A stretch of DNA of 64,000 nucleotides from Tetracentron sinense (Eukaryota; Streptophyta; Magnoliopsida; Trochodendrales; Trochodendraceae): positions 20,714,607-20,778,606 of the forward strand of contig CM026568.1 of assembly GCA_015143295.1 (NCBI GenBank), in the 5' to 3' direction. This document shows positions 1 through 56,160 of the stretch, in pieces. How positions within the stretch are numbered: the first letter of the stretch is position 1; every line of letters begins with the position of its first letter. Made by a program: the position numbers and the translations under genes. The notes below the pieces were generated by a model. It did not search any database, had not been told where the DNA came from, and worked only from the letters and a program-made list of their open reading frames with translations.

Positions 1-857
1 TTTTCTATCAAATACCTGAAATAGAAAAACAATACCCAGTGAAGCATAATAGGAACAAAAACAAGATTTAAGTATATAACAAGCATATCTTTGAGGTGTG
101 TAATTGTGTACAATTACGTCAATCACTTTTCCTTTGTTGAGTTATACATAATAAATCATAATAGAAAAACTCTCCAAAATCACAAGAATCTTATATGAGG
201 AATCTACATAATAATAATCATGCTTTAATCACTTTCTTATTTTAGATCTTGATCGTATCATTCTTATTTACATTAAAGATTATCATATTGGGAGAAAGGA
301 ATTCATATTAACCTCTCTTGATCGCTTCTCTACGATCTATCACTTGAGAATAGCCTTTGATCTCGATCTCTAATCGCTTATCTTCTTCTCTAGTTGAAAG
401 TCTCTAGAAAACCCTAGGTTTTTCTTTTTCTAGATCTACAAAACTCTTAGAAACTTTTTCCAACCCTTAACTCATGAAATAGGGTCTTTATATAAGGTTT
501 AGAATCCTAGGGAAGCCAAAAACTAAAAAAAAAAAAATGTGTTTTTCGGAATTTCCGTGCGCAATCTACGATTGATTAGACCTTACTGGACCTGGCTGAT
601 CGATCGGTCCTGATGGCTCCGATCGATTGGACCCTTACAGATCCTTTTTTTTAAAAAGTCTTTTGCTATTTTTGATTTACTTCATTTCATGCAATTTAAT
701 TCTAAAAAATAACTTAAATTAAATGATTTATTTGAGTTTTAAAATTCATACGTTTCCCATTGATTTTATAGACTTAATTACCTTAAAATTAAACACATAT
801 TTCTATAGAATTTAATAAATAACATGAATGTTAAGAATGGTAAATTTGAGGCTCTAT
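1..857 (-). mobile_element. LTR relic, family X copy A (cut by window edge)
   Basis: Read on the minus strand, this stretch resembles the promoter half of the LTRs at 2373-5327 and 50941-53104. It shares a TATA-like box (486-497), a pyrimidine-rich leader, and an end reading like GGCTCTATA (849-857), compared with GGGTCTCTATA in copy B. No protein domain is seen. The family is probably Ty3/Gypsy-like, but only by the general look of the LTR. The left end lies outside the window, so its completeness is unknown. Confidence 0.5.
569..632. promoter_or_regulatory. Palindromic-unit cluster in LTR copy A
   Basis: There are three degenerate units near 569, 597 and 619, each built on GATYGATY and followed by a GACC-like tail. 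They lie about 70 bp upstream of the TATA-like box at 486-497 on the minus strand. Similar clusters occupy the same position in the copies at 5052-5178 and 50942-50973. A role as U3 protein-binding sites is inference. Confidence 0.5.
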
Positions 858-1345
858 AAAAGTCCACTTCTATCCCATCCCGCTCATTTGAATCTGTCAG
901 AGCCGGTGCCCCACTAGATCAGGCTGTCATGATCTTCCCCTAAAGCACTTAAAGTATGACCCACGATTTAAAGAAAAAAATCTCGTTGGAGAGGTTTTTA
1001 ATAAATGAAATGAAATAGAGAGATCCATGGGTATGAGTATGATCTTGGGGGTAGTAAAAGTATAAAGGATGACGATAGGGTTTTTATTTAAAATAAAAAC
1101 AATTAAGAGTTTGATAGCCGGCTTGCAGTGGTAGCACCACCCACCGGAAAAAGAAAAACAAGAACTAAGAGGTCACCAAAGGGTCGGCGACTTTGATACC
1201 ATATAGAAATTCTGAATAGATAACCCAAAACTCTTAACTTGGAAAGACAATATTAAAGATAATCCTAATATAGTGAAGTTACTAATCTAAGATTATTTAT
1301 GAGATCATGTGTATCTCATAGATATTACATTATTATTTCCCTAAC
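858..1345 (-). mobile_element. Copia-type leader, primer-binding site and LTR remnant
   Basis: The 890-1201 part is clearly related to 40430-40711, in shared phrases such as ACTAGATCAG and TGACCC(A/G)CGATTT. It ends in a reverse-complement primer-binding site (ACTTTGATACCA, 1190-1201; compare TGGTATCAAAGT) followed by LTR-like sequence. It is an old relic of the Copia-type family seen at 37831-40935, oriented on the minus strand. No coding sequence is recognised. Confidence 0.55.
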
Positions 1346-2372
1346 ATAATATTTTCCTAATATAAATGAGGCAAAGTAACTGCAAGTTCCTATTTGTCCA
1401 ATGTTTCAATAATGTATGATAAAGGAAAAAGTGGGCACTTAGAAGTCATTTCGAAGGGATATATCTCTTATTTTTAAAAGACCATTTTGAAATGACAGGA
1501 GTTTTGAATGGCTTTAAGGAGAGTGCTAGTCCCACTCTCCTCACATTGCAACCACCCCTTTTGTGGCAAAAGACAAGGGTTTCTAGTGGGCCTACTGTTT
1601 TTCTACCTCCAAAAGGCGCATGTGCAAAGAGAGGAGAGAGGGGCGGGGGTAGCAAAATCCTAATTTAAAAGAGGAACTCCTTGGTCATATCGGGGTTCTC
1701 ACTTGCGAGAAGAGCATAGTTAGTCAGGAATCATTTGTGTATTTTGGAATAGTAATTCAATAGTTTGTTTATAAATTCGATGAAGAAAAAGCATAACATC
1801 AAAAGTGTATTTCAGAAACAATTTGTTTATAAGTTGGGCCAATACGCCAAAATTCGTTAAAAAATTTGGCTAAACATATCAAATGTGTATGTAAGATTAC
1901 CTTTCACTTACACTTTTATGTAATTGAATAAATAAAGCTAAATAACCTAAGTATATAAAAAAAAATATAAAATGTATAAATAAATCAAATCTAATGATTA
2001 AGTAATTATATTAAACTAAAAAAGTCATAATAAAAAAATGTCTATAAGTTATTTCTCTAAATAAATGGTGTACACTAAGTCATGAATTGGAGATTCAGAA
2101 GAAAATTTGCCCTCTTTGAATTTTTGGGAATAAAAGCTTAAATTATCATCTCATTGCAATGGATATAGAAAACAAAAAGAAGCTATCAACACAACTAAGC
2201 AGTTGTGATGATAAAGACGGTAAAATAGTTAAAGTTAGAGATTTAGAGAGAGAAAGAGATCGAGAGAAAGGAAGGGGATTGAGTGGTAACCGGTTAGTGT
2301 TGCAAGGCTGGCGACTTTCAGTGACTCTGTGGCCAATGAGATATAGACTTAGGGTTAGGGATAGAGAGAGAG
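1346..2372. other. Intergenic, nothing recognised
   Basis: AT-rich sequence with short chance open frames only. A purine-rich patch (about 2238-2274 and 2355-2372, GAGA-type) borders the LTR that follows. No domain, RNA gene or clear repeat was seen. Confidence 0.6.
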
Positions 2373-3027
2373 TGTGTCAACGACCCCAAAACCCCACCTT
2401 TGACATGATGAGACTTTGGGCTCGTGACATTTCTTAAACCTGCTTAATTCCATGACAAAAAGACAATATTGAAACAATACTCCAAAAATGATGATTATAA
2501 AATTTCATATCCATTAAACAAACCATCATGTACCTTCATAAGACCAAGTTAAACCCAACTCACGATATATTTGGGTAACCCAATACCCAAACCAAGTTTA
2601 AACATAAGCAACATCATGTAAACTAAAGTATCGATTACAATCTTTCTCAATAAAACAAACTATAATATAATAATAGGGAGAACTATCAAGACCCCTGGCT
2701 CCCTCTTCAGGAAGCACACCTACTTCTCCCTCTTCAATGTACTGCTCCTCAACATACGGCTTCATCATATGCTCTTGCTCTATACCTGCTAACAATAGCA
2801 GGTCGACCGAGTATTGAAATCACTCATCGTATATACAGTTCAACTAACAACATAACATAACCTGTACATGATTAATATCATAATTAATTTCATATTTACA
2901 TAATCAGAGTGCGGGAACACGTGAGCATATCATATCATCATCTTGACTCGTGTACTTGTGTGACTCTTGGACTTAAACATGTGAGATGCATATTCATAAT
3001 TCATATGTGTGCATAAGAAGTAACAAG

Positions 3028-3114
3028 TCCTGTCAACGCTTAATTCATAGTGTTTGTCCCGTCAATGCATAATTCATAGTGTTTATCCCATCAATGCAAA
3101 ATTCATAGTGTTTT
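3028..3114. repeat. 29-bp tandem repeat, three copies
   Basis: Three adjacent 29-bp units share TCAATGC and AATTCATAGTGTTT. They lie inside LTR copy B, in the part of the family that also carries tandem repeats in copy D (53390-53700). Confidence 0.85.
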
Positions 3115-3711
3115 TATATTGAGTAACATAATCATGACAACTCATAGGGTGGTATGTTCATAACTAGGGAGATATTCTTTCAAAGCATAATATGTTACAT
3201 GTCCATGTTTGATGCATGCATGATCTTGTGAGACTCGTGAATCCCTGGACCTTACTTCTTATCATGCATGTGAAATGTGCTTAAATGTCGTGATTGAAAT
3301 TCGAATGGATAATCCCTTAGATTCTGATCCTCTGCCAAGAAACTTCGCTAGGGTACATCTACCTAGTTGGAGAATTCCTGACCTGGAAGACTTCCTTTAG
3401 GTTTTGGCCAACCCAAATACTGATCACCATACAAGGTAGATAGGGTATAATTTAACACAACAATCATTAATAATTCCATATCATAATTATGCATTTTTCT
3501 AAGACATAATGGTAAACATTAACACACAATTCACTTCAATTACTCCATTTATTTCACCATTCACCCATAATTCCCCATCTCCTCCATAATTTTAGCCCAT
3601 TCACTACACACATAATCCATAACCCATAGTCATGCATTCAACCCTTCCTTCATAGTATTTCCCATCCTTCATTCATGACATCCCTAATGCATATAAATTC
3701 TCAATTCATAT

Positions 3712-4560
3712 AGTTAACGCCCCATTTTTACACCCCCTTTTAACCATAATTAATTTAACCATGATAGGCTCAACCAAACCCTAGGGCAAACCCTAGATCT
3801 TAACCAAAACCCAAACCCTAAGCTAACCCTTCCCTTATCATATAAATCCCCCCTCTCCTTCATGTTAAGGGGATTCCAAAACCTCCACAAGAAATCCCTG
3901 TCCAAACTCGGCCAGCCCTATCCACAGCCTTCCTCGGCCTTTGCCTTCACCTCAAGACAGAAGATTGAATGTAACCAACACAGAAGATTGCCCAAAAAAT
4001 ATGAAAAAGACCAAAATTCTATTATCTTGCTTTCTTTACTATGGTTAAGTCCCCTAACCATGGTTAGCACCCTTCTAATTGCGGTTAGACTTAACCTTGC
4101 ACTTGACCAACCCGGTCAATTAAACCCTAGCCTTGGGCTAGATCCTTGACCACCCTTATGCACACATGCACACACCCCTAGCCTTGGCATGGGCCCATAT
4201 GCCAGAACTACGCTCGGTCTGATCTCACCCCAATGTGAGTACATAGACAACCCAACTCGGATTCGACCCTAGCCCATCTAGTTTTCTTTCTTTCTTGGAT
4301 TAGCAATTGATTAAACACTGAGGCAAGTTAATTAATTTTGAGATTAAATTAACTTAAATTTAGGGAGTAGGTTACCATTTAAAAATGGAGGTCTTAGGGT
4401 GCCTAACACCATCCCCGGGGCTTAATCGAACCACTTATCCTAACTCTGATAGACCATTAAAACTTATCCAACTATCCGGGACCTATTCCTAAGCATGAAT
4501 AGGTGGCGACTCTCAATCAAACCCAAATGTGAAATTGGGTAGAAAAATCTCATGCTCACA
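3712..4560 (+). mobile_element. Solo LTR, Ogre/Tat-like Ty3/Gypsy, nested in copy B
   Basis: It is flanked by a perfect 5-bp duplication, CATAT (3707-3711 and 4561-4565). Its start (AACGCCCCATTTTTACACCC) and end segment (AGTAGGTTACCAT, GGTGCCTAACACC, AGGTGGCGACTCT) match the larger solo LTR at 25463-28150. Such phrases are typical of Ogre/Tat LTRs as I remember them. It is a single LTR without an internal region. It is younger than the LTR it interrupts. Confidence 0.75.
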
Positions 4561-5051
4561 CATATTCTAATATCCATAACCTATGTACAACATGAAAAAC
4601 ATATACAAATCTTCATTCTCATCTTTCTATAACATGCAAAACAATCATAGAGTTAGATGGGAGAATATTTTGACCTTACTTCATAGTCAAGCTAATCAAT
4701 CTATACATAATCATGTAGATATCTTGGTAATCCATACTTTTTCATGTATAAGCATTGCAATAGATTAGGTTAGAAAGTATATCAACCTTAGGGATCGTTC
4801 CCTTCAATATATCCAAATCGCTAGCAAGAGGCTTTGGAGGTGATCTCCAAGCCAAATCCTCCTTCCGCAAGCAAAATTCTTCTTCTCCAACCCAAATCCC
4901 TCTTGAAATACTAGGTTTTCCCCAGATTTCTCCCAAATTAGGTTTAGAAACTCTTAGAACCTAAAACTCTTGAATTAGAAAGGTTATTTATAGTTTAAGA
5001 GTTTAAAACTCTGATTTCCGTAACTTATAAAAAAATCATGTGTGTGACTTG

Positions 5052-5178
5052 TGATCGATCGTAGCCCTTCAGTGCAATCAATCGTCTATACGGGTGTGAT
5101 TGATTGTAACCAACACAGAAGATTGCCCAAATTTCTTATCTCGGACGATCGATCATGGGTCCCCCTACGATCGATCAC
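5052..5178. promoter_or_regulatory. Palindromic-unit cluster in LTR copy B
   Basis: Five units built on GATCGATC, CAATCAATCG or GATTGATTG begin near 5052, 5075, 5098, 5145 and 5167. They lie about 60 bp upstream of the reverse TATA-like box (CTATAAATAACC, 4982-4993). The 5098-5131 part also occurs in the nested solo LTR at 3963-3996. Confidence 0.6.
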
Positions 5179-5704
5179 AGACTCTGTTTTTCCACTTTTC
5201 TTCTTGTCTAAGCATTTTAAACCTCCTACCCCTTTAGTTATAATTAAACACACTTAGCAATACATCAATGGCTATTATACTCCTATTAAACAAGGTAATT
5301 TCAGGAATTCAAATTTGGGTCTCTATAGAGAGAGAGAGAGAGATGTATGTGAGCCTACGAGAAAGAAGAAAGAGGGTTTAAGAGCTTATTTTACTGTTTA
5401 AGGCATTCTTTATCTTATACATATTATTCAGGAATGATCCCTCTTAGTGATAAAATTCGTGAATTTTTTCATCTCCGCGAATTTTTCATCTCTTTAAATA
5501 ACATGGATGGATTATATGAATAAAGAGTTATAGGTATTACACATATAATACACACATTTACTAACTATGGACATCATGCTAGTCAAGATGCACATTTCAA
5601 AAAAAATCTTCACTCGCACTTCGGGTGCAACACATGTTGTTGCAGATCCGAACCTTTTGTAGATGTCTCTACAATGACTCTTTGCAGAAATCAAGACAGC
5701 GTTG

Positions 5705-5832
5705 AAGCGGAGCTCTTCTTTTTACACTATAGTTGTGGTATGCCGGTAATTATTGAAGTAGGCTGGGTATTTACACAACATACCATAATTACAATATTAC
5801 CACTTAATAGTGTAAAAAGGGGAGCTCCGCTT
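5705..5832. mobile_element. Small inverted-repeat MITE
   Basis: The arms begin AAGCGGAGCTC and end GAGCTCCGCTT and continue inward over about 25 bases (CTTTTTACACTA). It is 128 bp with no coding capacity. The target duplication is not clear, so the superfamily is undecided. Confidence 0.65.
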
Positions 5833-6359
5833 AACGTGGTGAAACAGAGCTCCTCTTTGTATTTAAGCAAATTGTCTTTAGCATATGTCAGAAAAATGGT
5901 CTCGGACATCCACACATCATCCAACATATAACAATAAAAATGGGTTTAGTCATTTCATTTTCTCTCCATGTTTTTGACTTTTCCCACTTGATATCTCTTT
6001 CCTTTTAATCGCACATGTTGGATGAAATGTGACTCAAGGCCCTTTTTCTGGCATCCGCTAGAAACAATCCGATGCCTATTTAAACCGACAAAGAATTCTT
6101 AAAATAAAGTCTCTCCTAAATTCTACAAATAATTCTTGTTGAGGACGATTCTAAGGATAACAGCGAATAAAAAAGTGACACATGTCATATCCACAGTGAA
6201 AGTTTGCGTATGGGACTAGCATTACACTGCTTAAAGTTCATGCCTCTAATGGAATCAACAGGGCTGTCCTAGAAATCTCACATAGAGAGAACGCTGTTGT
6301 TTTATAGCCCCCAGATCTTAAGTCCACAACTCTCTCTCTCTCTCACTAAACCAGCAGCC

Positions 6360-8588
6360 ATGTTTGGAGGAGCTCGTTCTGTCCTCTCTCTCACTACTTT
6401 CCTTCTAACCATCTCACTTCTTCCATCCCCATCACGTCCCGCCACGGGCTCCTTCATCTACGGTGGCTGCTCTCAGCTAAAATACAACCCAGGCACACCA
6501 TACGAGTCAAACCTCAACTCACTCCTCACCTCCCTGGTCAACTCAGCCACCTTCTCATCCTACAACAACTTCACCATCCTCGGTTCGACCCCCCAAGACG
6601 TGGTCTACGGTCTCTACCAATGCCGAGGCGACCTCCCCATGCCCGACTGCGCCACCTGCGTCGCTCACTCAGTGAGCCAACTCGGCGTCCTTTGCTTCGA
6701 CTCCTCCGGTGGTGCGTTGCAGCTTCAAGGGTGCTTCGTCAAGTACGATAACACTACCTTCTTAGGGGTGGAAGACAAAACTGTCTTGATGAAGAAATGT
6801 GGGCCGTCGATTGGGTATAACACCGACGCGATGAGCCGTAGAGATGCGGTGTTTTCGGGGTTGGCGAGTGCAGGTGGGGCCTACAGGGTTGGTGGGTCCG
6901 GGGGAGTGCAGGGTGTGACGCAGTGTGTTGGAGACTTGAGTTCATCCGAGTGTCAGGATTGCGTGTCCGAGGCGATCGGACGGTTGAGGACCGATTGTGC
7001 AACGGCGGTTTCCGGTGATATGTTCTTGGGTAAGTGTTACGCGCGGTATTCTGCGGGAGGGCAGTATTCCAAGGCCAAAAGCGGTAAGCGGTTTCACCAC
7101 CCCAGATGGTGGTTTCTGGTTTATGTGGCGGTCTGTTTGATCGTAATTTGTGGGATTTGAGTATATTTATTTACTAAAATCTCCTTGTTTGGTTTTGAAT
7201 TCACCTCGTCCCTTTGTAAAATAAATGCGAAAATTGAGTCACTTGCAAGGTGGTTTAGGTTAATTCAAAATATTCAAGAAGATTTCGCACCCTTTTTTAT
7301 TTTATTTTGCGCGTGTATGAGCATGAGTGGGGCTGTTTGATTTGGGGGAGTATTTTTAAATGTACAAATGTTACGAAAATACCCTGATACCCTCATGTAA
7401 TCAAGGAGAATTTGGTATTTTTGAAATTTAAGAATGCTAGAATTAGTGCTATATCATTTATGTGGTGGGTCTTTATAGTAATTCAGATTTGATAGTTACC
7501 GTCTGATCAAGATCCAACGGCTAACAAAGGATCTCGCACTACGAATCCATATGATATTTTATATTTGAATTTTGCTCACTTTCAAATTTAGCTAATATTC
7601 GATTTAAATACTACAATGATAGAAAAGATAAACCCAAATTACATGGGATAAAAATAATGTGTTACAAAGTATGCTTGAGACACCCCTTAAAGTATTCAAA
7701 GACTTTTTTGTCTAAAAGGGGAAAAAGCTCCCTCCCAATTGCTTGACTATGGTTACCATAATTTAGCATATCATGAGACAAGCAGACCCCACATTGAATC
7801 AATTCTCGATGTTATTTGAGAATCCTATGATGATGATGATGATATTAATTTTATATGATTTAAGTAGTTTGATGTGAAGAATGTATTTTTTTTTAATATA
7901 AAAAAAGATAAATATTAAATATTTAAAAAAAATTGTATAGAAACAGATATACAATTATTAGTATATTTACAAAGAATATGTGAAACCATTTTTTTATATA
8001 TATAAATTTGACTGGCATTTTCAACCGCAGATTCTTCTGAAGAGGACGCTGGGAAGACGCTCGCAATTATCATTGGAATATTGGCGGGAGTCGCTTTAAT
8101 TATCATTTTCCTTTCTATAATAAGAAAGGGGTTTCAAGAGAAAGGTAGAAATCTTTCATTTCTTTTTCTAAAAATTGTATTGTGTATACTTGTATAGGGT
8201 TAGTTGAGAAAACAAATGAATACCCTTAATTCACTTAGGTGGTGTTTGGATTGGGTTTTTTTGGCCAAAAATCAATTGTAATAAAATTGATTGTGTAATA
8301 ATTTATGATCAAATAATCATTTTTTCAAATAATAGTACGAAGTTGAGAGACTCACCTACGTATTCTCCAAACAATATTATTTGAAAAAATGATTATTTAA
8401 TCATTAATTTATATACAATCAATTTTATACGTATTCTCCAAACATTATTATTTGAAAAAATGATTATTTGATCATTAATTTCTACACAATCAATTTTATC
8501 ATAATTGATTTTTGGCAAAAAAAACCCAATCCAAACACCCCATTAGTACTTATTTATGTTTATTTTATTTTTCATTGCAGGTAAATAA
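6360..8588 (+). CDS. Plasmodesmata-located protein (PDLP), three exons
   Basis: The exons are 6360-7083, 8031-8144 and 8581-8588, giving 281 residues. All introns start GT and end AG, and the frame is kept throughout (phase 1, then phase 1). The protein has a signal peptide (about 1-28), two DUF26 domains each with C-x8-C-x2-C (C88/C97/C100 and C189/C198/C201), a membrane helix (about 250-271) and a short cytosolic tail ending GFQEKGK. This is the usual PDLP plan, with apoplastic DUF26 ectodomains at plasmodesmata that limit cell-to-cell traffic and act in defence. The ATG at 6360 is preferred over the in-frame ATG at 6297 because it leads straight into the signal peptide; the leader is CT-rich. 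The last coding exon is only 8 nt. A MITE lies in intron 2. The class is secure; the PDLP number is not assigned. Confidence 0.93.
8238..8541. mobile_element. Long-arm inverted-repeat MITE in PDLP intron 2
   Basis: The outer arms of roughly 100 bp are near complements, GGTGTTTGGATTGGGTTT at the left and its reverse at the right. Two direct copies of a block of about 70 bp (CGTATTCTCCAAACA followed by ATTATTTGAAAAAATG) lie inside. It has no coding capacity. It lies wholly in the intron 8145-8580, ending about 40 bp before the acceptor of the 8-nt exon. The family is undetermined. Confidence 0.8.
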
Positions 8589-11766: not shown

Positions 11767-13348
11767 TGAAAGGGAAAAAATCTCGTACACGCCACGCGTT
11801 TGTAGCAGCTCGGCTGGTAGAGGAATGATAGCAAAAAGCCACCTGTGAATGAGCCTGAGGGGGCGGGTGTGCAACCTGAAATAAGCTCCGATGATAAAGT
11901 CAGTATAAGGCACAAGCACAGTATAAGGCACAAGGCACATAATAGTATAGAGATACTTATCCTGAGGTCACTGGGTATATGCACTTGAGGATGAGCTCTG
12001 GTGAGGCACTGGGCATATGCACTTGAGGACGAACTCTGGTGAGGCACTGGGCATATGCACTTGAGGATGAACTCTGGTGAGGCACTGGACATATGCACTT
12101 GAGGACGAGCTCTGGTGATATGCTCTGGAGATTGTAGCTCAGGAGGCACAAAGAATATGGCTCAGACAACGTAACTCTGACAAGGCACAGACATCGTAGC
12201 TCAGGTAAGGCACAGACAATATAGCTCTGACAACGTAGCTCTGACAACGTGCTCTGATAACGTGCTCTGATAACGTAGCTCTAGCTCGGATAAGGCACTG
12301 GCACAGTAGCTAGGATAAGGCACTGAGGACGTAGCTCGGAAGGCACTAAGGACGTAGCTCAGAAGGCACTGACAACGTAGCTCAGAAGGCACTGACAACG
12401 TAGCCCGGATGACGTAGCTCTGATAAGATAGCTCGGACAACGTAACTCTAGCTCTGATAACGCATACGTTGTACAACAGACAACGGGTACGTTGTACAGC
12501 AGACAACGGGTACATTGTACAGCAAACAACGTGAACGTTGTACAGCTCACGACGGGTACGTTGTACATCAGATAACGGACAACGAGCTCTGCACTATGCA
12601 CAACACAACGGGCAACGGATTCGACACCATTCACAGCACAACGGATTCGGCACCATTCACAGCACAACGTATTCGACACCATTCACAGCAGACAACGCGA
12701 CAACGGATTCGGCATTATTCACAGCGTCAGGCACAAGTACATGTGTGATTGCACTCATCAGATGATCAACTGCAAGGCCGTGCAAGTGGCAGTGTGACCA
12801 TTCATGGAGAGCATCAGGCAGACATGGCCTATTTGAGAGAATCTGACGGCCATAAACGCTTGTGAGGCCATAAAGAGCATCAAGTAGCCGGAGAACACCA
12901 AAGGAAGATGAGAGAATCAGGGGAGTGGCCATCTACACAGCACTTCAGGGTAGGGGTGTGAATGACTCAAGCTTCTCAGATCTCCCTCTTCCTCTTCCTC
13001 TTCCTCTTCCTCTTCCTCTTTCTCTTCCTCTTCTTCTTCTTCTTCTTCTCTTGATCTCCTCTCTTGCCTTTAGCACCATCCTTCTTTCTTCTTCTTCTGC
13101 CCTTTCTCCCCTCTCTTGCTTTTCGCACCATCATCCTCTTCTCTTTGGTGATTGTTGCTTATTTCTAGGCATTTGGAGTCATCATGACTTGTGCAGTCAT
13201 GATAAGATCACCTGTCAGACAACACTCAAGTGAGCCAGCACATAGCCTAAGTGGGCTTATGTCGGCTAAATTGTCAGAATTTGTGAGCATGAAAAATCCC
13301 TATTTCACCCCTTCTTTTTACTCCTTTTTATGAATTTTATCCGTTACA
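11767..13348 (-). repeat. 3' LTR of the 4.55-kb element
   Basis: This is the 1582-bp LTR. It holds four copies of a 38-bp unit (about 11968-12120), a long run of degenerate ACGTAGCTCTGA-like units (12130-12460), CGTTGT/ACAACG dyads (12460-12570), AACGGATTCG units (12600-12720) and a (CTTCCT)n tract (12980-13045). The partner LTR has three 38-bp units and a shorter CT tract, which explains most of the length difference. Confidence 0.92.
12460..12720. promoter_or_regulatory. Array of CGTTGT/ACAACG dyads and AACGG sites in the LTR
   Basis: About five units of roughly 23 bp combine TACGTTGTACA with CAGACAACG, forming imperfect dyads. They are followed by about four units of 26 bp with CACAACGGATTCG and CATTCACAG. 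The array repeats at 15440-15710 in the other LTR. AACGG is the known core of MYB-type (MSA) sites in plants. That the array is a U3 enhancer is inference. Confidence 0.5.
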
Positions 13349-14779: not shown

Positions 14780-16317
14780 TGAAAGGGAAAAAATCCCGTA
14801 CACGCCACGCGTCTGTAGTAGCTCGGCTGGTAGAGGAATGATAGCAAAAAGCCACCTGTGAATGAGCCTGAGGGGGCGGGTGTGCACCTTGAAATAAGCT
14901 CCGATGATAAAGTCAGTATAAGGCACAAGCACAATATAAGGCACAAGGCACATAATAGTATAGAGATACTTATCGTGAGGTCACTGGGTATATGCACTTG
15001 AGGACGAGCTCTGGTGAGGCACTGGGCATATGCACTTGAGGACGAACTCTGGTGAGGCACTGGGCATATGCACTTGAGGACGAGCTCTGGTGATATGCTC
15101 TGGAGATTGTAGCTCAGGAGGCACAAAGAATATGGCTCAGACAACGTAACTCTGACAAGGCACAGACATCGTAGCTCAGGTAAGGCACAGACAATGTAGC
15201 TCTGACAACATAGCTCTGACAACGTGCTCTGATAACGTGCTCTGATAATGTAGCTCTAGCTCGGATAAGGCACTGGCACAGTAGCTAGGATAAGGCACTG
15301 AGGACGTAGCTCGGAAGGCACTAAGGACGTAGCTCAGAAGGCACTGACAACGTAGCTCAGAAGGCACTGACAACGTAGCTCGGATGACGTAGCTCTGATA
15401 AGATAGCTCGGACAACGTAACTCTAGCTCTGATAACGCATACGTTGTGCATCCGTTGTGCAACAGACAACGGGTACGTTGTACAGCAGACAACGTGTACA
15501 TTGTACAATAAACAACGTGAACGTTGTACAGCTCACGACGGGTACGTTGTACATCAGATAACGGACAACGAGCTCGGCACTATGCACAACACAACGGGAC
15601 AACGGATTCGACACCATTCACAGCACAACGGATTCAGCACCATTCACAGCACAACGTATTCGCCACCATTCACAGCAGACAACGCGACAACGGATTCGGC
15701 ATTATTCACAGCGTCAGGCACAAGTACATGTGTGATTGCACTCATCAGATGATCAACTGCAAGGCCGTGCAAGTGGCAGTGTGACCATTCATGGAGAGCA
15801 TCAGGCAGACATGGCCTATTTGAGAGAATCTGACGGCCATAAACGCTTGTGAGGCCATAAAGAGCATCAAGTAGTCGGAGAACACCAAAGGAAGATGAGA
15901 GAATCAGGGGAGTGGCCATCTACACAGCACTTCAGGGTAGGGGTGTGAATGACTCAAGCTTCTCAGATCTCCCTCTTCCTCTTCCTCTTCCTCTTTCTCT
16001 TCCTCTTCTTCTTCTTCTCTTGATCTCCTCTCTTGCCTTTAGCACCATCCTTCTTTCTTCTTCTTCTGCCCTTTCTCCCCTCTCTTGCTTTTCGCACCAT
16101 CATCCTCTTCTCTTTGGTGATTGTTGTTTATTTCTAGGCATTTGGAGTCATCATGACTTGTGCAGTCATGATAAGATCACCTGTCAGACAACACTCAAGT
16201 GAGCCAGCACAAAGCCCAAGTTGGCTTATGTCGGCTAAATTGTCAGAATTTGTGAGCATGAGAAATCCCTATTTTACCCCTTCTTTTTACTCCTTTTTAC
16301 GAATTTTATCCGTTACA
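14780..16317 (-). repeat. 5' LTR of the 4.55-kb element
   Basis: This is the 1538-bp partner of 11767-13348, next to the primer-binding site. It carries three 38-bp units (14984-15099) and the same downstream arrays. The right end CCGTTACA is followed by the AATGG target duplication. Confidence 0.92.
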
Positions 16318-28986: not shown

Positions 28987-29352
28987 TCTACGGTGATAAC
29001 CGGATTTGGCAAATCCGGTTATCACCCCTACAGGTCACCACTTGTCTCCTTGGACACCCCTTAACCATGGGTAATGTTCACCCACCCCTAGGGTTCACCC
29101 ACCTATTTTTGGTTTTTTTTTAAAAATATTAATTCTATTTTTAAAATTTAAAAACTGTTTTAAAACTTTTTTTAATATTAAAAACAGTTTTTTAATTTTA
29201 AAAAAAGAATTAATATTATAAAAAAAACCAAAAATAAATGGGTGAACCCTAGGGTGGGTGAACCTTACCCATGGTTAAGGGGTGTCAAAGGAAACATGTG
29301 GTGACCTCTAGGGGTGATAACCGGATTTGCCAAATCGGGTTATCACCGTAGA
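28987..29352. mobile_element. Near-perfect fold-back element, about 366 bp
   Basis: The two halves are nearly complementary end to end: TCTACGGTGATAACCGG at the left matches the reverse of the right end. Each terminus itself contains a hairpin (GGTGATAACCGGATTTG and its complement, 28992-29026 and 29314-29347). CACCCCTTAACCATGGGTAA occurs in both arms. An AT-rich centre joins them. No coding. GACATATCAAAA occurs near 28954 and at 29351-29362 but does not abut both ends, so no target duplication is claimed. Confidence 0.8.
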
Positions 29353-44747: not shown

Positions 44748-44940
44748 CTCCCAAGTCCAAAGCTAACAAATTTAAGGGCTCTTTTTCTTACCTAAGGCCC
44801 GTGAGTTAGATAGGGCCGAATTTTCAAGTCCTCTAGCCCGGGTTCCACAGGTCTTACTATACCATAATATACATGTAGAGTATTGGATATTATAAATGAA
44901 ATCTATAATGAGATCTGTATTATACATGTGCTAGATGAGA

Positions 44941-45153: not shown

Positions 45154-45245
45154 TTCCGTCTTAGATATATATTTTACATGGTAACACTTTAATACTATAC
45201 CTTATGTTAATACTGTGTCAAAACTCAAAATACATATTAGTATTG

Positions 45246-46137: not shown

Positions 46138-46268
46138 TATATCAGTGGTAGTGTGTCCCCTCATTAAGAGGGAGGTTCCGGGCTCAAGTCCCATGGAGGT
46201 GGGTGTTGTGATTTCCCCACACTTTTGTAGAGTAGATACTAACTCCTAACCCTCTGTGCAAAAAAAAA
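46138..46268 (+). mobile_element. tRNA-derived SINE with A-tail
   Basis: A-box-like ATCAGTGGTAGTGTGTC, then B-box-like GGGCTCAAGTCCCAT about 35 bp on, a body with GTAGAGTAGATACTAACTCC, and a nine-A tail. The same 3' body is found in reverse at 30375-30520. Confidence 0.75.
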
Positions 46269-47079: not shown

Positions 47080-47285
47080 AGTAATTTCTATCAACATATA
47101 CGTAGCCTCTAACACTCTTTAAGTCAGGTTTAAAAAGTTTAACCTCTATGATTTAAAAAATTATTTTATTTTTCTAAAAACAAGGTTAGATTTTTTAACC
47201 TTAAGAGTTACTAAATCTTAACCATGGTTAAAGGGAGTTAACAGGGACACATGGCGAGTTGGAGGGGATAAGTCAAAATATTTTA
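47080..47285. mobile_element. Partial fold-back element
   Basis: It contains AATCTTAACCATGGTTAA and GGGACACATGGCGAG, with AAGTTTAACCTC and AAGGTTAGATTTTTTAACC around a short AT-rich centre. It belongs with the elements near 24, 29, 42 and 63 kb by shared core. Ends not resolved. Confidence 0.45.
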
Positions 47286-47619
47286 CTTTGGCTGGGGAGA
47301 GATTTAGGGAGTAAATCCTAAATATTGATCTATAAAGCAGGTTTAGGAAAGGTTATAATTTTAAAATGGGTATTTCAATGCCTTATTTCAAAAACTAAAA
47401 GTTGTAATTTGTAATTAACCTTACTTATAAAGGCTCCGATTGTTCGCACATAAATAGTTTTACAACGTAAATTATTTATGGTGTAAAAACTCTTATGGTA
47501 AAAAAAAAAAAAAGTTTTATACTTTTTTTGTTATTGTTTAGTTGCATTGTTGAAAATAAATCGAAAAATTTCTTTATGCTACTTATTTGTATTAAGAGTA
47601 GAGTAACATTGAAAATTAC

Positions 47620-48070
47620 ATGTAAGAGGAGATTTTTGTCATTCAAATAAAAAATATTTTTATAAACTTTTTAGTTGAAATTTTTTCGTTATTTAGAATA
47701 CATGTGAATATGAGGTATTTTTATTATTTTAGAAAATACATGTAAAAGGGTTTTTTTTTTTTCATTTTAGAAAATACATATAGGGAGTATGTTTGTTATT
47801 TTAGAAAATATGAGTGTAGAGGTGCATTTTTGTCATTTAGAAAATATATGTGAAAAATGATATTATTGTTATTTAAAAAATATATTTGAAGAGTGATATT
47901 ATGTAATTTTGAAAAATACACGCGTAGGGTTATTTCTGCTATTTTAAGAAATATATGTGAAGAAAGGTATTTTTATTATTATGCAACAAGTAGTAAAGGG
48001 GTATTTATGTCATCTTAAATGTGACTAGTGAATGTTTTGTCATTTTAATAAATATATGTGAAGAATAATA
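47620..48070. repeat. Degenerate minisatellite, unit about 40-46 bp
   Basis: About nine units contain GTATTTTTGTCATTTTAGAAA and ATATATGTGAAGA in varied forms. Unit length and sequence drift suggest age. No coding. Confidence 0.75.
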
Positions 48071-50261
48071 CTTTTGCCAAAATTTATTTAAAGGGATGAA
48101 AATTTAATAGAAAAATGACATTCAAAATTTTAAAATGTAAGTTATTTTTTACAAAAATTGCTTATTTTCTATAAAACATTTTTACAACATGCAAAAAATA
48201 ATATTTTTCATGGATTTAATTTATTTTTTCCTATTTTACATCGAAACAATCATAGCATAGAATATAAGTGTAGAGTTATGAGTCTCTAGAATCCATTCCA
48301 CCTATAAAGAGAACCATATCTCATTCATAAGATAAACTGCTTCGTTTATATTTGTTATTGAGTTTAAATACAAGCCACAATAGTTATATAAGCAGATTTA
48401 TAATGCAAAATCTCTTATAATTTCAAAACTGCATCATCTTACAGTGAAAAAGGGAGCTCTACCAAATACTATGGAGAGGCTCATATTTATTTATTTTTAC
48501 ATATTCACTTTTTATTTTTTAGCAAATAAGGACGAATTTGATCCCAAGTTATGCTTTGACACCTAACAACTTTACCAACTTAGCATTCTGACATTAGTAT
48601 CTAGGTCATGGTATCAACTACTTCAATACATCTTCTGGGAAGATACACAATATCATATTTTAAAGTTGAGATTAACCATGAACAACTCTTATTGAACAGA
48701 AACCCAAAAAATGCATTGGGATGGGTATTTATAGAAAAATTTTAACGTTAAAAAATACTCATCTTTTTTTTATATTTGTAATTACCACACTATCACTTTC
48801 CAAGGCAATTTTTTGGATTGTTCCAGTTGACTGTTCAATCGGAACTCCTTTCATAGTTAATATCTTTAAAGTTTGGGCCATTTTAATGAAGAGGGAGTGC
48901 TACCTCAATTTTATGAAAGGGTCAAACATTTTTTAATGTGACCTACTAAAAATTGATTTGACTTTCACACCTATATGATTAATGGTCAATAAGATTTTAG
49001 GCTAGTGCTCTCTTAGTATGGGATCTCAAACACAACTAGAGCTGTTTTCACATATGTTGATATGCACCAATTGGGTTTTGGTAGTCCGTACACAAAATGC
49101 CCCAAAGCAACACATTGCGCAAATTCAGCTAAGAGTTCTTATTTTTGACATCAGTGTTTTCCTACCCATGGTCTTAGAGGGACCCAATTCATCTATGGTT
49201 GAGTGTTACAACTTAATTTAATCCAAATTAATGGACATAAAATTAAGAGTAAAAATAATATAGTGCATAAGAGACACAATTGAAATATCTGGTAAGCACA
49301 GGGTTGAATCTACAGGGATTGACTGTTGTGCAACAAGAATTAAAGAAACGAAATCGAGAGAGAAAAGAGAGATTTAAAATCGGTTTTTCACTCAATGATA
49401 GTGGAGCAAAAGCCACTGAAAATGTAAAGTAAGAAAAAGAGATCTAAGGCTTCAGGAGAATATATCCACCTATCTCTCCTTATGCTTAGATTTGGATGAA
49501 AACGCATCTAGAATTAAATAATGATTTAATCTAGATGAAAAATACTACGATAAAACCACTGATGATTAATTCAATTGAATAATTACAGAAATTTAAAAAG
49601 CACTTTGTATCCAACTCATAGGGGATCCAAGCATTCTATATATCATTAGATCACGGAATCAAAGAACATATAGAAAGAAATAATTAACCAAACTAAGAAA
49701 ATTATTCAATTAAAATTAATAATCAAACCATCCACATCGTCCACATAAGTTGGAAAATGTTTCAAATCCTTAACCTTGGAAGGGTGTTTAGCTAACCATT
49801 ATTAGAGTTGTCATTCTCCTTAATGATTTACTTAACATTATAATAACTCAAATAAAAAAGAAGAATTAAAATAAGAAAACAAACTAAGGGACAAAAGAGG
49901 GGAGAGATAAGAGAACCAAAGACAACCCAAAAAAAATCAATCTCCAAAGAGAGTATTTACACCAATAAAGCAACCACAGGTGGACAAAAGCACCAAGGGA
50001 GAAAGAGACTAGCTAGGGACGCCCCCCAAGAGTTTAAATAGGGCTGGACGTCCAACCCTTCTTTTCCTCTTACAAACTTACTTGTTTCCTTTTTCTTAAG
50101 ACATCTTAAAAGGAAACATGACATCACCACTTTTGCCTTTCTTTTTTCGTTCTTTAGTATAATGGAAATATCTCAATACCACCTTTTTCCACTTTCTCTA
50201 TTTTGGAAGTATTCACTTATGTATCAAATTCTTCTCCACAGGCAAACGATCACTCCTTCCT
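48071..50261. other. Anonymous region
   Basis: No host gene found. The block 49230-50060 (GTGCATAAGAGACACAATTG, GGGTTGAATCTACAGGGA and on) has the look of a dispersed plant repeat, but no ends or duplications were found. Small open frames at 48721 and 49018 match nothing known. Confidence 0.45.
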
Positions 50262-50940
50262 CTTTTTTTTTTCTTTTTTTTTTGGTTAAAAGACATTATA
50301 TTAAATGTTAAACCTCATTTACATAGTTATTCCAAGAAATGCAGGGTGTCTCCTGCCAGGAAAGAAATTGAGGGAAAGGAGATTTCCCCAGGCTTATATT
50401 TAAAGCCACCTGAGCAAAATTGTGTGCTGCTTGGTTTACCTCACGCCGGGCAAACTGAATCTTAACAAGCCTGTTGAGCGTCCATAGGTCTTTTATATGA
50501 GCAACAATTGTAGAGATTTCCCAGTGCACGAACGAGGAGAGATCATTTAGACAATCAGTAAGTTCTTTTGAGTCGAACTCAATGATAACATTTCTCCACT
50601 TAGCCATTTCTATGACTTGAAAACCCAATCGGATTGCCTCTACTTCCGCCACTCTACTGGATCCGCCTGTAAGGGGACGCAGACATAAACAAACCAGCCT
50701 TCCCAGATTGTTACGGACTACAATCCCAGCCCCTGCCCCTAAATCGCTCAGTGAGGAAGCACCATCAGCATTTATCTTCAACCATCCCATAGGGGGAGGC
50801 ACCCAAAGTATTTGCACTATTTTAGGAGAGGTAGCTTCGTCCAGAGCCTACTCCTCATGCAGACTACTACATGTTTTCGCAAGTATCTCCCCCACTAATA
50901 CCTCCACTAGGAGTTTTTGCCCAGAATCTTCTGTAAAGCC
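50262..50940 (-). mobile_element. LINE 3' end (L1 type), 5'-truncated
   Basis: The minus strand carries an RNase H domain (50308-50817), a short 3' UTR and an A-tail interrupted by a G (50262-50283 on the + strand as T-runs). Upstream, frames such as KLLVEVLVGEILAK extend to about 50940 before an in-frame stop near 50850. Beyond it begins LTR copy C. Truncation at the 5' side and the A-tail are usual for target-primed insertion. No clear target duplication. Confidence 0.8.
50308..50817 (-). pseudogene. RNase H domain of a LINE polyprotein
   Basis: 169 residues. WLKINADGASSLSDLGAGAG (first catalytic aspartate), SRVAEVEAIRLGF (glutamate) and NVIIEFDSKEL (second aspartate) form the RNase H core; VKIQFARREVNQAAHNFAQ is the usual C-terminal helix region. 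This is the RVT_3-type domain found at the end of plant L1 LINE ORF2 and in many proteins annotated as putative ribonuclease H. Upstream reverse transcriptase is absent, so it is a fragment, not a host gene. Confidence 0.85.
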
Positions 50941-50941
50941 C

Positions 50942-50973
50942 TGATCGATCTAAACTAACTCCCGATCGATCGG
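50942..50973. promoter_or_regulatory. Palindromic-unit cluster in LTR copy C
   Basis: Two units, TGATCGATCT (50942-50951) and CGATCGATCGG (50963-50973), lie about 65 bp upstream of the TATA-like box of the same LTR. The cluster may be longer in an intact copy; here it meets the LINE boundary. Confidence 0.55.
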
Positions 50974-51548
50974 AACTCACGAATTTTGTTTTTAAAAATC
51001 CTCAAATCACGGACTTTAGGGTTTTAAACCCCTAGGACTATAAATAGAGGTTCTATTTCGAAGGATTAGAGTGTTCTAAATATTTTTAACCTAATTTGGC
51101 AAAGGAGAAGAGAAAACCTAGGGTTCTAAGAGAGATTTACTTGGGGAAGAAGGAGATTGCTCAAGCATGGAAGATTTAGAATGTTCTATATAATGATGAA
51201 TGAGAGTTTCTACTCATAGAATGGAGATTTAGGCATGTGTTTAAGATGTTGGAAAATGATGGTTAAAGCTTATTGGTTAGTTAATTAATGAATTGTTGGA
51301 AATTGTGGAAGGAAAGTGAAGATGGATTGGGTTTGAATGAATGGTTATGAGATTGGGATGTGTGTCTATGATAATGTATGCTTGGAATGAAGTATGAGGT
51401 ATATGAATTGGAGGAATGGTGTTTGTTTTTATGTATGAATGGAAATGGAACGAGTTTAATGTTAAGAAATGTATTATGGAAATGAATGCATTATGCTAAA
51501 AATTTTAGCTATAATTCTTATGTTAAGCTATGCTAAAATGTTAATTAT

Positions 51549-52136
51549 GTCCCGTTTGGTTGCACTTCCGTTTTCTGTTTTCTAAAACAAAATTTTGAAA
51601 ATTTTTACACAAACCATGTTTGGTAACATGTTTCTGTTTTTTTTTTTTTTTAAATTAGTAACGAATTTTTGAAAATCAAGATAACAGAAATTTTATGTTA
51701 CCTCTATTTTTAAAACAAAAAACAAAAATGGAAAACATGGACCCACCCACCCACAATACAACCACAATACCACCACCATCTACCACGACACCACCACCAT
51801 CACCATCACCCACTTACCCACCCACCAACCACCATCACTACCACCACCCACAAACACAATACCATCACCATCCACCACGACAATACCACCCACCACCGCC
51901 CACTACGGACCACCACAATACTACTACCACCACCACCACTACCACCCCCCACCACTACCACCACCATGAATTGAAATGATTTAATCATATTTACCACATT
52001 TATTTTTTTGTTTTCCTTTTTTTAAAGCAAGTAACAATTAGTAATGCCAAACGTGTTTCTTACAAAAAAAATTGAAAACAGAAAATCATTTCCAATTTTT
52101 AAAAACAGAAAAATGGAAGTGTATCCAAAGGGCCCC
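51549..52136. mobile_element. MITE with an internal CCA-rich minisatellite
   Basis: The ends GTCCCGTTTGGTTGCACTTC and, in reverse, GGGGCCCTTTGGATACACTT are inverted repeats, continuing with TTTTCTGTTTT and AAACATGTTTGG-like phrases for about 100 bp. The centre (51745-51965) is a CCA/CAC-rich simple repeat. Open frames over it are rich in Thr, Pro and His only because of the repeat. Superfamily uncertain. Confidence 0.7.
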
Positions 52137-54309
52137 TATGCTTCTCATGTTAAATTATGTCTTATTTATATTGAATGGTGGTTGGTATTCGGGTAAGCCA
52201 AAACCTAGAGGGAAGTCTTTCAGATCGGGAATTCTCTAACCATTCAGAATAGGACGTTATGGTGTAGTTTCCATGGTAGGAGATCGGAACCTAAGGGATG
52301 ACCTACTTGAATATTAATTGCAACACTCAAGCACACATTCACTTGCATGGTAAGTCTTTAAGTCTCATGGGTTCACATGTCTCACAAGAATACATACATG
52401 GCTCGAATATCTCATAAGCTCATAAGTATTAGTCCGCGGAAAGGACATGAAATCTCATAAGAAATATCTCGCAAGCTCATAAGAACATGCAACATGTAAG
52501 ATCAAGTCTAAGAGTCTCTCACGATCACAAGTCCACACGAGTCAAGATGAAAATATGATATGTCTCGCATGTTCTTACGCACTCTGATTATATGTTTATG
52601 AAATGGTTATGATATTGATTATGTTCAAATGATATTATATTGTTGGTTAGACTGCATATACGTTGAGTGTTTTCAATAATCAGTCAACCTGTTATTGTCA
52701 GCGGGTATAGAACAGGAGTACACGGCGGAGCCGTGGATTGAGGAGTTTTATGTCGAGGAAAAAGAAGAAAGTGAGCCTCCAGTTGAGGAAGCTCAAGAGT
52801 TGGATAGGTGGCCATACTATTAGGCCTTGTTTTACTTTTTTGAAAGGATTGTAATAGACTTATGTTACTTAGGTTGATGTTTCTTAGAATCATATACTTT
52901 GTTGGATTTTAGTTATGGTGGGTTATGTTCATATGGGTCAGACTTATGCAAGATGGTTTGGTTATTATATATTGAATTTTATTATTCTCATTTTTGGAGA
53001 CTCGTGGTTAGTATGTCTTGTATATCATGGGATTTTAAGCAGGTTTAAAAATTGTGGTGACTCAATGTCCCATTTTGGTCAAGGTGGGATTTAGGGTCAT
53101 TACACTTTGTATTCTTCCTCAATCCACGGACCTGGAGCACAGATGTCGAATCCCAAACCTATCAAACAATAACAGTTTGGCTAAGCATTGGAAATACTCA
53201 GCAGATACAATGCATAATTAACAATATAAATAACATGCATTTTCAGTCATATCATACTTTATAATATCAGAGTGCGGAAACATAAGCCGTTCGTATAATC
53301 ATTCCATGACATTTTCATATTCATGACTCATGTAGACTTGTGATACATATGCAGACTCATGTCCATTCATACTAGGTTCATCATTCCATCAATAACCATA
53401 CCAATTTTCATTATCATACCAGAGTTCTAAGGTCCATACCATTCTAGGTATGTACCATATTTTCATGTCATCACAAGCTTACCAATTTCGTACCAGGGTT
53501 CCAAGATCCATACCATTCTAGGTTCATATCATATTTTCATGCCATCACAGGCTTACCAATTCCATACCAGGGTTCCAAAGTCCATATTCTAAAGTCCGTA
53601 CCACCTGTATGTAAATTCATGCCCATATCCATACCATATGCATATAAATTACATGCTCATATCCATACCATCTGCATGTAAATTTCATGCTCATATTTGT
53701 TCTCACTAGGTCCATACCGTTCATATCAGGGCCCTATCAATCATATGGGTATATATGTAGACTTACCAACTAGTGGACTCATGCAAACTTACCAACATAC
53801 CATGCCGTGAGACTTGTGCTTGACCGTGTCATGATTAAGCTTTTATCTAGGCTATCTCTTAGGTTCCGATACCTTACCATCGAAATTCTACTATAATGGC
53901 CCCGTACCACAATAGTTAGAGAATGCTAGGTTAATAGCATTATCCCCTAAGCATTGACCTATCCGAAAATTTAATCATTATAGATATATAAATAAACATA
54001 ATTTAACATGTGAAATCATACAAAATATTTATCATTCAATAGGGTATTAACATCAATTCATGTTAAAGAGATTATCAATATCATCTAATAATGTAAAATT
54101 GTAAATCCTTCATCATTCATTATACCATAATCCAACATACATCCGATCCTCCATAAATAATTTATATCCATCATCCATTCTCATCCTCCTTATTCAATCA
54201 AGATCCATCATAAGTTATACTCTAGCAATAATAGCAATTTAAAACAAGATCCAGGATTTTATCAATATTCTTTCCATGAGTTCATGTCATGTCTTTAGAT
54301 CTAAACTTT

Positions 54310-54620
54310 AAAGTCATGTATAATCATTCTACTCAATTAGGGTTTATCTATACTCAATCTTGATTTGAAACTAGCACTCTAAATCTTAAAAATCACGTAG
54401 AATCTACTCAATTAGGGTTTATCTACACTCAATCATGATCCTGAAAACTAGCAATCTAAATCTTAAAAATCACATAAAATCATTACTCAATTAAGGTTTA
54501 TCTACACCCAATCATGATCTTGAAATTAGCAATCTAAATCTTAAAAATCACATAAAATCATTCTACTCAATTTGGGTTTACCTACACCCAATCATGATCT
54601 TGAAAACTAGCAATTCTTAT
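54310..54620. repeat. Tandem repeat of about 80 bp, four copies
   Basis: Each unit has CTACTCAATTAGGGTTTATC, CAATCATGATC and CTAAATCTTAAAAATCAC. It lies within LTR copy D. Confidence 0.85.
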
Positions 54621-54667
54621 TAATTAAAATCGTTAATTATACAAAGTATCAAACATTTCAAGATCGT

Positions 54668-56160
54668 TGTTGCCCAATTATTGGACCCTAGAGGGGGGGG
54701 GGGGGTGATTAGGGTCAATGGTTGATTTAAATTAATATTTAGCTTCTTTTTGCGGAATTTCAGATTGAATTAAATTAACAATGATAGAAACAATTATTGA
54801 AAAGATAAATGAATTGATAAGAGATAAAGAGTGTAAACATAGCAGAATTGTTATCGAGGTTCGGCACTCCCACCTACGTCCCTACCTTAAGTTCTCGGCT
54901 CAAAGGATTCAACACGATTTCACTATCGCACGAGCTTCTTTCCAGGTGAAGCCCAAACCTTTACAATCATTTTCCTAGGTGAGGATTACCACCTTCAATA
55001 CAAGAGAACACTCTCTCTTGACTTTGCAAAGCTCTCCGGTTTTTCAGACAAGAATCCACGATTCTTAATTTCCTTTTATACAAAAGAGTTGTTGGATTTG
55101 AATCCAAATAATAAAGCTCCTTAATGAGTTGAATAAGATTGGAATGCACACTCTACAAATCTCTCAAAAGAATGAGAATTGAAAGCTCAAATAAAGAGAA
55201 ATGTGGTTCTAGGTTTTTCAATGATGTTCTTGATGAGAATTGAATACTATTGAATGATTTGATCAATGGTAGTTCAAGAATAATTCCAGAGTTATTTAAA
55301 GTTCATTTATGAACTATATTTATAGTTGAGGAATGAATAATGTCGTTGAGGAATTCATAAATGCGAAAATAACCGTTAAAAAACTAGCCATTATGAGCAT
55401 TTTGCTGATTCCCAGAGGTAACCGTCGACGGATGAGATTTCCATCCTGAAACCGTCGACGATTCATAAGACAGAAAGTTTTTAAACTTTTTGTAACATCA
55501 ACCATTAACGGCTGGCCAATCCTCTGGCCCATCCATCGACGGTTCAAGCTTAAATTCTCATGAACCTCTATTTTTAAAGACCAATAAGATGGGAATGATT
55601 TTCTAGTTCTTTTGATTTCCCTTAATTATGATTTTAACCATAATTTAAGATATCCTAGGGCCCTGGAATATTTTTCAATAAATTCTAGGATTTCTAAGGT
55701 TAATCTAGGTGCTTGAGTATTTCAACATTCCATAAGTTTGAGGACTTTTTACATAAGTCCTAGACTCATAAATTCAATAATATCTTCCTTGAGAGTTTCT
55801 CTTCAACTTGATTATGGCCTTCGAATTGGTCTTTGACTTACGATCTTCCTTTCTTGATTATGGATCCATCTTGGACTTTGGATATAATTTTGAGATCTTC
55901 AATTTGATTCACATAACCCAAAGACTTGATCTTGACTTTGATGGCATTATATATGATTTCACGACTTGAAATTTGGAGTTCATCTTGGATTTTCTTTAAG
56001 TCACTTTCTTTCTTCATGCCTTGATTTGATGTGTTAATGTTTTCTTAATCAGAATTTTATATAAACTTTATAGAACCATTAATACCAATATGATCATTCC
56101 ATTAATGTGTTATCATCAAAACTATTAAGGGTACATAGGGTTGTAACATTTAGGCTAACA
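54668..56160 (-). mobile_element. Solo LTR of a second family, nested in copy D
   Basis: Ends TGTTGCCCAATTATTGG and GTTGTAACATTTAGGCTAACA (in part) give TG/CA on both strands. Flanks ATCGT (54663-54667) and ATCAT (56161-56165) are a 5-bp duplication with one difference. A reverse TATA-like box (CTATATTTATAG, near 55314-55325) and a palindromic cluster (55421-55546) fix the minus orientation. No internal region or partner LTR. G-run at 54693-54705. Confidence 0.75.
55421..55546. promoter_or_regulatory. CCGTCGACGG palindromic cluster in the nested LTR
   Basis: Units ACCGTCGACGGAT (55421), ACCGTCGACGATT (55451), ACCATTAACGGCTGG (55501) and CATCGACGGTT (from 55534) occur, the last in opposite sense. 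They begin about 90 bp upstream of the TATA-like box on the minus strand. The arrangement parallels that in family X though the palindrome is different. Confidence 0.6.

Follow-up and report, generated by a model that had tools for sequence, protein, structure and literature searches.

Palindrome arrays upstream of the TATA box in gypsy-type and Sirevirus-type long terminal repeats of a plant genome

In a 64-kb stretch of a 1.16-Gb plant genome assembly (G000:C18:20714607-20778606, the whole of which is called the window), long terminal repeats (LTRs) of two retrotransposon families carry clusters of short palindromes upstream of the TATA box, and these clusters are real and well above chance. 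Family 1 comprises the gypsy-type copies A, B and C, and family 2 is represented by a solo LTR of the Sirevirus type (Ty1/copia). The clusters are interpreted as cis-regulatory arrays of the U3 region, under selection, whose units would most likely be bound by a dimeric host protein, and this sequence-based reading is given a probability of about 0.58. The features concerned are as follows.

569..632, minus strand, palindrome cluster of copy A, with one perfect GATCGATC and two degenerate units
489..494, minus strand, TATA box of copy A
5052..5178, minus strand, palindrome cluster of copy B, with three perfect GATCGATC and two degenerate units
4987..4992, minus strand, TATA box of copy B (AACTATAAATAACC)
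50942..50973, plus strand, palindrome cluster of copy C, with GATCGATC and CCGATCGATCGG spaced 21 bp
51039..51044, plus strand, TATA box of copy C (GGACTATAAATAGAGG)
54668..56160, minus strand, solo Sirevirus-type LTR (Ty1/copia), TG..CA ends, 5-bp duplication ATCGT/ATCAT
55533..55542, minus strand, unit 1 of the solo LTR, decayed CCGTCGACGG
55502..55511, minus strand, unit 2, decayed; commonest form among copies CCGTCAACGG
55452..55461, minus strand, unit 3, CGTCGACG core perfect over 8 bp
55422..55431, minus strand, unit 4, perfect 10-bp palindrome CCGTCGACGG
55319..55324, minus strand, TATA box of the solo LTR (AACTATAAATATAG)
56160..56700, minus strand, copy F, a related gypsy LTR directly adjoined by the solo LTR, TATA box at 56332-56327, without palindrome units

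Perfect GATCGATC occurs six times in the window (598, 5053, 5147, 5169, 50943 and 50964), compared with 0.39 expected under an order-2 Markov model and a maximum of two in 200 draws, and all six lie within copies A, B and C, upstream of their TATA boxes, where an earlier note on this DNA (the original prediction) had placed them. Relative to the TATA box, the perfect units are centred at -106 in copy A, at -63, -157 and -179 in copy B, and at -70 and -91 in copy C; the predicted distance of 60-70 bp thus describes the nearest unit of copies B and C and is less fitting for copy A. The array of copy C recurs in genome copies, with up to eight units.

The second LTR had been predicted to belong to another family and to have its own palindrome upstream of its TATA box, and this was confirmed: it is of the Sirevirus type and bears four units resembling CCGTCGACGG, placed about 100-210 bp before its TATA box, the perfect ones centred at -101 and -131. 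CGTCGACG was counted twice in the window against 0.015 expected under the order-2 Markov model. Because the LTR is flanked by a 5-bp target duplication with one change and the internal region is absent, it was classified as a solo LTR. At 55410-55560, unit 1 with its flank is repeated in inverted orientation by unit 4 with its flank, which makes the array a nested inverted repeat as well, one common to 25 copies. The lineage was named from a related element on C12, because this element bears the marks given for Sireviruses in the accessible text of PMC2829016. Its LTRs are about 1.43-1.44 kb long and 91% identical to each other; at the junction of the LTR and the primer binding site (PBS), ..CAACA is followed by TTGGTATCAGAGC, matching the description of the conserved Sirevirus junction (PMC2829016); the polypurine tract shows the Sirevirus inverted repeat CATCATCAAAAA (CATCATCAAAAAGGGAGAGA adjoining TGTTAG, and TTTTGATG..AACACAT within the LTR); and the poly-C stretch CCCCCCACCTC, also a Sirevirus mark, is close to the LTR end. 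A frame of the same element matched zf-CCHC (L065:5537-6010, E 4.4e-5), and Retrotran_gag_2 was matched at L065:8654-9133 (E 1.2e-9, in a frame that follows a second PBS and may belong to a nested element) and in L069 (E 2.2e-20). By these gag matches the elements are classed as copia-type.

Copies A, B and C are not of Sirevirus origin, because elements with this LTR encode the gypsy-type protease RVP_2 together with the reverse transcriptase domain RVT_1, RT_RNaseH and the integrase C-terminal GPY/F domain SH3_Tf2-1. An element on C17, which holds two family 1 matches, has two LTRs of 2.1-2.2 kb (89% identical; ends TGTAGAG or TGTGGAG..TTACA) and frames matching RVP_2 (E 6.5e-28), RVT_1 (E 5.8e-34) and, at the integrase end, SH3_Tf2-1 (E 5.4e-7, 30.1 bits against a cut-off of 30), and RT_RNaseH (E 1.2e-28) was matched in a frame of an element on C6. 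A chromodomain was not seen in the C17 element, in which a 46-aa piece at the expected place and two other pieces had no relevant match. Copies A, B and C are accordingly placed in Ty3/gypsy. A length of about 2 kb with TG..CA ends fits the lineage that we take to be Tekay/Del, and the copies are most likely Tekay/Del-like, the protein domains defining Ty3/gypsy and not the lineage.

Genome copies were collected with 50942-51180 of copy C as the query for family 1 (40 matches scored of 3276 candidates; 30 loci, L001-L030) and with 55380-55640 of the second LTR as the query for family 2 (40 matches scored of 203 candidates; 30 loci, L031-L060). Perfect palindromes of 8 bp containing two or more G/C were counted in 25-bp bins aligned on the TATA box and compared with dinucleotide shuffles, using all 30 loci of family 1 (one of them truncated and without units) and 25 of the 30 loci of family 2, five without a clear TATA box having been dropped. 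This TATA-aligned check had been proposed with the original prediction, and enrichment was obtained in both families: the family 1 bins from -200 to -50 held 18, 17, 18, 6, 19 and 17 palindromes (95 in total, 14.2 in shuffles), and the family 2 bins from -225 to -150 held 8, 14 and 6 (28 in total, 5.9 in shuffles, or about two each), the copies being related and the enrichment therefore a property of two families and not of 55 independent events. Beyond -350 and downstream of -50, family 1 palindromes were near or below expectation. Unit number and spacing vary, as had also been claimed: family 1 copies have 0 to 8 units with at most one mismatch, and their spacings peak at 22 (36), 21 (19), 50 (15) and 18 (13). 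Spacings cluster at 18-22 bp. Of the 29 copies that possess a unit, 16 have the centre of the last one at -70.

For the measurement of conservation, 28 of the 30 family 1 copies were aligned, one truncated copy and one duplicate locus having been dropped, and eight unit positions were obtained, each with GATCGATC as the majority word. Identity counted by transversions only, which sets CpG decay aside, was 0.970 in the 64 unit columns versus 0.795 in the 148 spacer columns, and 0.944 in the 91 columns downstream to the TATA region. For family 1 this points to selection on the units, a sign that is absent in family 2. In family 1 the eight positions fall into two four-unit blocks with matching spacings; at a shift of 111 the spacers are 49% identical (mean over shifts 26%, sd 5.6), and a gapped spacer-only score was 7.0 versus -4.4 in 1000 shuffles (sd 3.5, max 11), or 3.2 sd above. 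The eight units are likely an old duplication of a 111-bp, four-unit block, and the family 1 array probably grew in this way, the units being retained afterwards and the spacers not. Among 195 scorable unit cells 90 are intact, and C>T or G>A at the CpGs of CCGATCGATCGG accounts for 137 of the 168 changes, a decay that is expected if silenced copies are methylated.

That the position is kept while the palindrome differs, as originally predicted, holds across two superfamilies with unrelated upstream sequence: the core promoters mostly align between families, and the upstream regions are unalignable. In the flanks of fetched loci, a biased set because these loci had been fetched for other reasons, GGTCGACC units were seen in further gypsy LTRs, and different palindromes in two additional LTRs of copia type. 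The GGTCGACC core is present in gypsy-type arrays (L017, L030 and L039/L070) and in copia-type arrays (L069 and L065), and CGGTCGACCG, an extension of it that is perfect once, in the L030 array, is the box of a grapevine Sirevirus (PMC2829016); taken together, these matches speak for a common plant factor. TCGA is the centre of each of the LTR-linked words GATCGATC, CGTCGACG, GGTCGACC (in gypsy as well as copia settings) and GTTCGAAC, against 12 of the 176 palindromic 8-mers with at least four G/C; the TCGA centre is a lead only, since the words are not independent and some published boxes, in the accessible text of PMC2829016, have no such centre. A further cluster word, GCATATGC (L029 580-803 and window 11975-12096), is not TCGA-centred, and inspection by eye of the L029 place alone revealed no array resembling the others.

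Transitions separate GATCGATC from GGTCGACC, the other gypsy word, and hybrid forms exist. Units mixing both (GGTCGATC and GATCGACC) stand beside perfect ones in L017, L030 and L070, by decay or by half-site change. Decay as the source of GGTCGACC was considered and set aside: it could convert some units, but hardly explains perfect units of each word in arrays that retain their CpGs. Rearranged promoters were also seen. In L004 (495-800) and L005 (2490-2711), about 150 bp with the GTTCGAAC palindrome and a TATATATAC box is tandemly duplicated, so that the LTR has its promoter twice. L009 has, at about 1975-2500, a second start like that of an LTR (TGTGTAGCACCCCG), with CGGTCGACCG units to one side of it and CCGATCGCTCGG/GATCGATC units to the opposite side, and in L070 at about 747-1099 a Sirevirus-type LTR (TGTTGCCC) interrupts a gypsy LTR near the palindrome cluster, a single case that may be due to chance.

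In the proposed mechanism, a dyad-symmetric word specific to the family would be present 2-8 times in a U3 promoter array, often at intervals of about 20-22 bp, and the unit closest to the TATA box would lie about 60-110 bp before it; a host DNA-binding protein would occupy each unit as a homodimer, neighbours lying side by side along the helix, and occupancy would raise LTR transcription or prevent silencing. A repeated dyad word, about two helical turns apart, fixed before the TATA box and outlasting its surroundings, looks like an array of sites for a dimeric protein. Position, repetition, symmetry, family specificity, conservation of the family 1 units, signs of an old internal duplication and C>T decay at CpGs are features of the DNA itself; protein binding, a host origin of the protein and an effect on transcription are what we infer from them. 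The use of host factors at U3 sites is documented for other plant LTRs, including the heat element ONSEN and the W-boxes of ATCOPIA93 (PMC12786077), and counts for the binding of host proteins here; in those cases LTR cis elements recruit known, tested factors, according to the accessible text, whereas the present arrays are putative sites. The modular U3 cassette of the original prediction, perhaps bound by dimeric host factors, is partly supported: its family-specific words, its fixed position and the conservation in family 1 favour it, and family 2 gave no selection signal.

Several results weigh against binding under selection. Transversion-only identity in family 2 (25 copies) was 0.978 in units and 0.970 in spacers (p 0.29), and raw identity was lower in the units (0.795 versus 0.884 in spacers). 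The column-wise conservation tests treat related copies as independent, and the signal of the block duplication is old and weak. Family 2 has a second excess of palindromes at -325 to -275 (9 and 6; 15 versus 3.5 in shuffles) that does not consist of the units. A helical-phase score (mean cosine 0.65) is in line with the mechanism but, calculated against a weak, uniform null with spacings hand-picked per family, mainly restates the preference for about 20 bp. In copy F, predicted to be without units and found to be so, a TATA box is present and the 466 bp upstream of it contain no palindrome of at least 8 bp with at least two G/C. Finally, scanning the window for at least two copies of one 8-bp palindrome within 300 bp gave 13 clusters (shuffles: mean 1.5, max 4), of which three are copies B and C and the Sirevirus-type LTR; the other ten lie elsewhere, so that two-copy clusters are not peculiar to these LTRs.

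The foremost alternative, still unlikely, is that the arrays are a decayed minisatellite, the leftovers of one tandem repeat inherited by descent and without present function, which is also what the original prediction had named as its refutation. The two four-unit blocks of family 1 with their spacer-only identity of 0.49 at shift 111 (0.26 over shifts), the unit layout common to related copies, and family 2 units conserved no better than spacers all agree with it. Descent from one repeat is probably part of the history, through the old 111-bp duplication; but in family 1 the 8-bp units are retained and the spacers belonging to that repeat have diverged (0.970 versus 0.795 by transversions), units of 8 bp are too short for ordinary gene conversion, and unrelated LTRs bear other palindromes at the same place. 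It is improbable that the protein binding the units is instead one that the element itself encodes and that changes along with the motif, by analogy with the anti-silencing VANC proteins on VANDAL motifs. The targets of VANC21 are likewise family-specific and dense, are gained and lost through tandem repeats and differ between families (PMC5735166). That system, however, is known in DNA transposons, its motifs have one orientation, the word palindrome is not in the main text of PMC5735166, and an element-encoded protein would not predict a common core in copia and gypsy arrays.

A slim chance is given to folding, in which complementary units would pair within the U3 region of genomic RNA or single-stranded DNA and the fold would be what is kept. 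Folding z-scores versus shuffles were -7.8 (L010), -5.1 (Sirevirus-type array of the window) and -1.9 (copy C), and the consensus fold of the 25 Sirevirus-type copies has 33 pairs at -21.9 kcal/mol, with unit 1 and its flank pairing with unit 4 and its flank, and part of unit 2 pairing with part of unit 3 within this stem. These z-scores follow from the repeats, since any self-complementary array folds well, copy C was matched by 8 of 200 shuffles, and covariation is almost nil (a term of -0.67 kcal/mol, with 3 of 33 pairs changed on both sides); nevertheless, the unit-unit stems shared by the 25 copies shift the odds slightly from binding toward structure. The slimmest chance falls to a CpG cassette, in which the palindromes would serve chiefly as closely packed, symmetric CpGs that are methylated or escape methylation, and not as the sites of one particular protein. 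The predominance of CpG transitions in the family 1 unit cells (137 of 168 changes) and the variable 5' CpG island of grass Del LTRs, interpreted in the accessible text of PMC4029996 as a moving silencing target, agree with such a role, but deamination is expected at any methylated CpG, and CpG density alone leaves one exact word per family and the regular spacing unexplained. A role as an insertion target was rejected, the arrays having a fixed promoter position and insertion sites showing no more than a slight preference for palindromes in the accessible text of PMC6911290.

Arrays of this kind are known from Sireviruses as RM boxes (Bousios et al. 2010, PMC2829016). These palindromic repeated motifs were described in 13 Sireviruses, of which two use a common word and the others one of their own; they mostly form CpG islands just upstream of the conserved TATA box, vary in copy number, are missing from some elements and are absent from classic Ty1/copia, so far as the accessible text goes; among the words are CGGTCGACCG in the grapevine Sirevirus and ACAATCGATTGT in Tnd-1 of tobacco. 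The array of the Sirevirus-type LTR belongs to this known type, having palindromic units clustered upstream of a TATA box that follows the last of them by about 100 bp. It differs in that the published boxes, except Tnd-1, have CGG..CCG in the accessible text, whereas CCGATCGATCGG and CCGTCGACGG read CCG..CGG and CAGGGTCGACCCTG reads neither; the family 2 unit, CCG-TCGA-CGG, has the reverse order of that signature. RM boxes were reported as specific to Sireviruses among Ty1/copia (PMC2829016), whereas a like arrangement is found here in a Ty3/gypsy lineage. For Del (Tekay) LTRs, a variable 5' CpG island was described in grass groups III-IX (Cruz et al. 2014, PMC4029996) and reported to be missing in grass group II and in the eudicot group, the latter with five species; unlike the present arrays, it was described, in the accessible text, without palindromes or repeat units. 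The word palindrome is likewise not in the main texts of PMC3601003 and PMC11656987. The VANC-bound VANDAL motifs resemble the arrays as dense, family-specific short motifs in non-coding DNA that evolve via tandem repeats, and differ in belonging to a DNA transposon, in the element-encoded protein, in their one orientation and in palindromes being unmentioned in the main text (PMC5735166). No report of such palindromes in gypsy LTRs was found in the literature searched, most subscription papers being outside its reach, and the gypsy arrays appear to be new, extending the known type to another superfamily. They would correct the printed impression of a Sirevirus peculiarity, provided that the gypsy lineage is confirmed.

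Should the arrays be protein sites, they would make it possible to test how very abundant plant retrotransposons become active, and why upstream regions change so fast beside stable core promoters. A palindrome core common to arrays of the two superfamilies would suggest one host factor acting on both, directly retrievable with a 12-bp probe. A broader proposal, which we regard as doubtful, is that copia and gypsy elements of flowering plants have repeatedly evolved arrays for one homodimeric plant protein family recognising a TCGA core, the bases flanking TCGA picking the paralogue, hence a separate word for each element family with both half-sites changing together (GATC|GATC versus GGTC|GACC); if it is true, TCGA-core arrays would be a record of the host factor used by each element.

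As for arrays elsewhere, three-copy clusters in the window are limited to copy B and the tandem repeat ATCATGAT (54432-54591). A stricter scan (at least five units with at most one mismatch, two of them perfect, inside 250 bp) gave zero clusters in 10 window shuffles and zero in the window itself. Two random 10-kb stretches of the genome (20 kb) contain no cluster. What is suggested of the prevalence of arrays across this genome comes from a handful of words in the biased set of flanks.

Other repeats were noted in the window. The segments 11767-13298 and 14780-16267, some 3 kb apart, form a direct duplication in which several 300-bp pieces are 97-99% identical and which includes tandem units spaced 23 bp at 12439-12635. 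Inverted repeats at 28987-29352 and 8233-8547, whose arms measure 101-102 bp, are 94% and 91% complementary and are separated by 111-164 bp, resemble miniature inverted-repeat transposable elements or hairpin loci, and two 140-bp tandem copies, 93% identical, lie at 63338-63617. From about 6361 onward, an ATG and a frame with ..FIYGGCSQLKYNPGTP.. form what we take, by eye, to be the start of a cysteine-rich repeat secretory protein.

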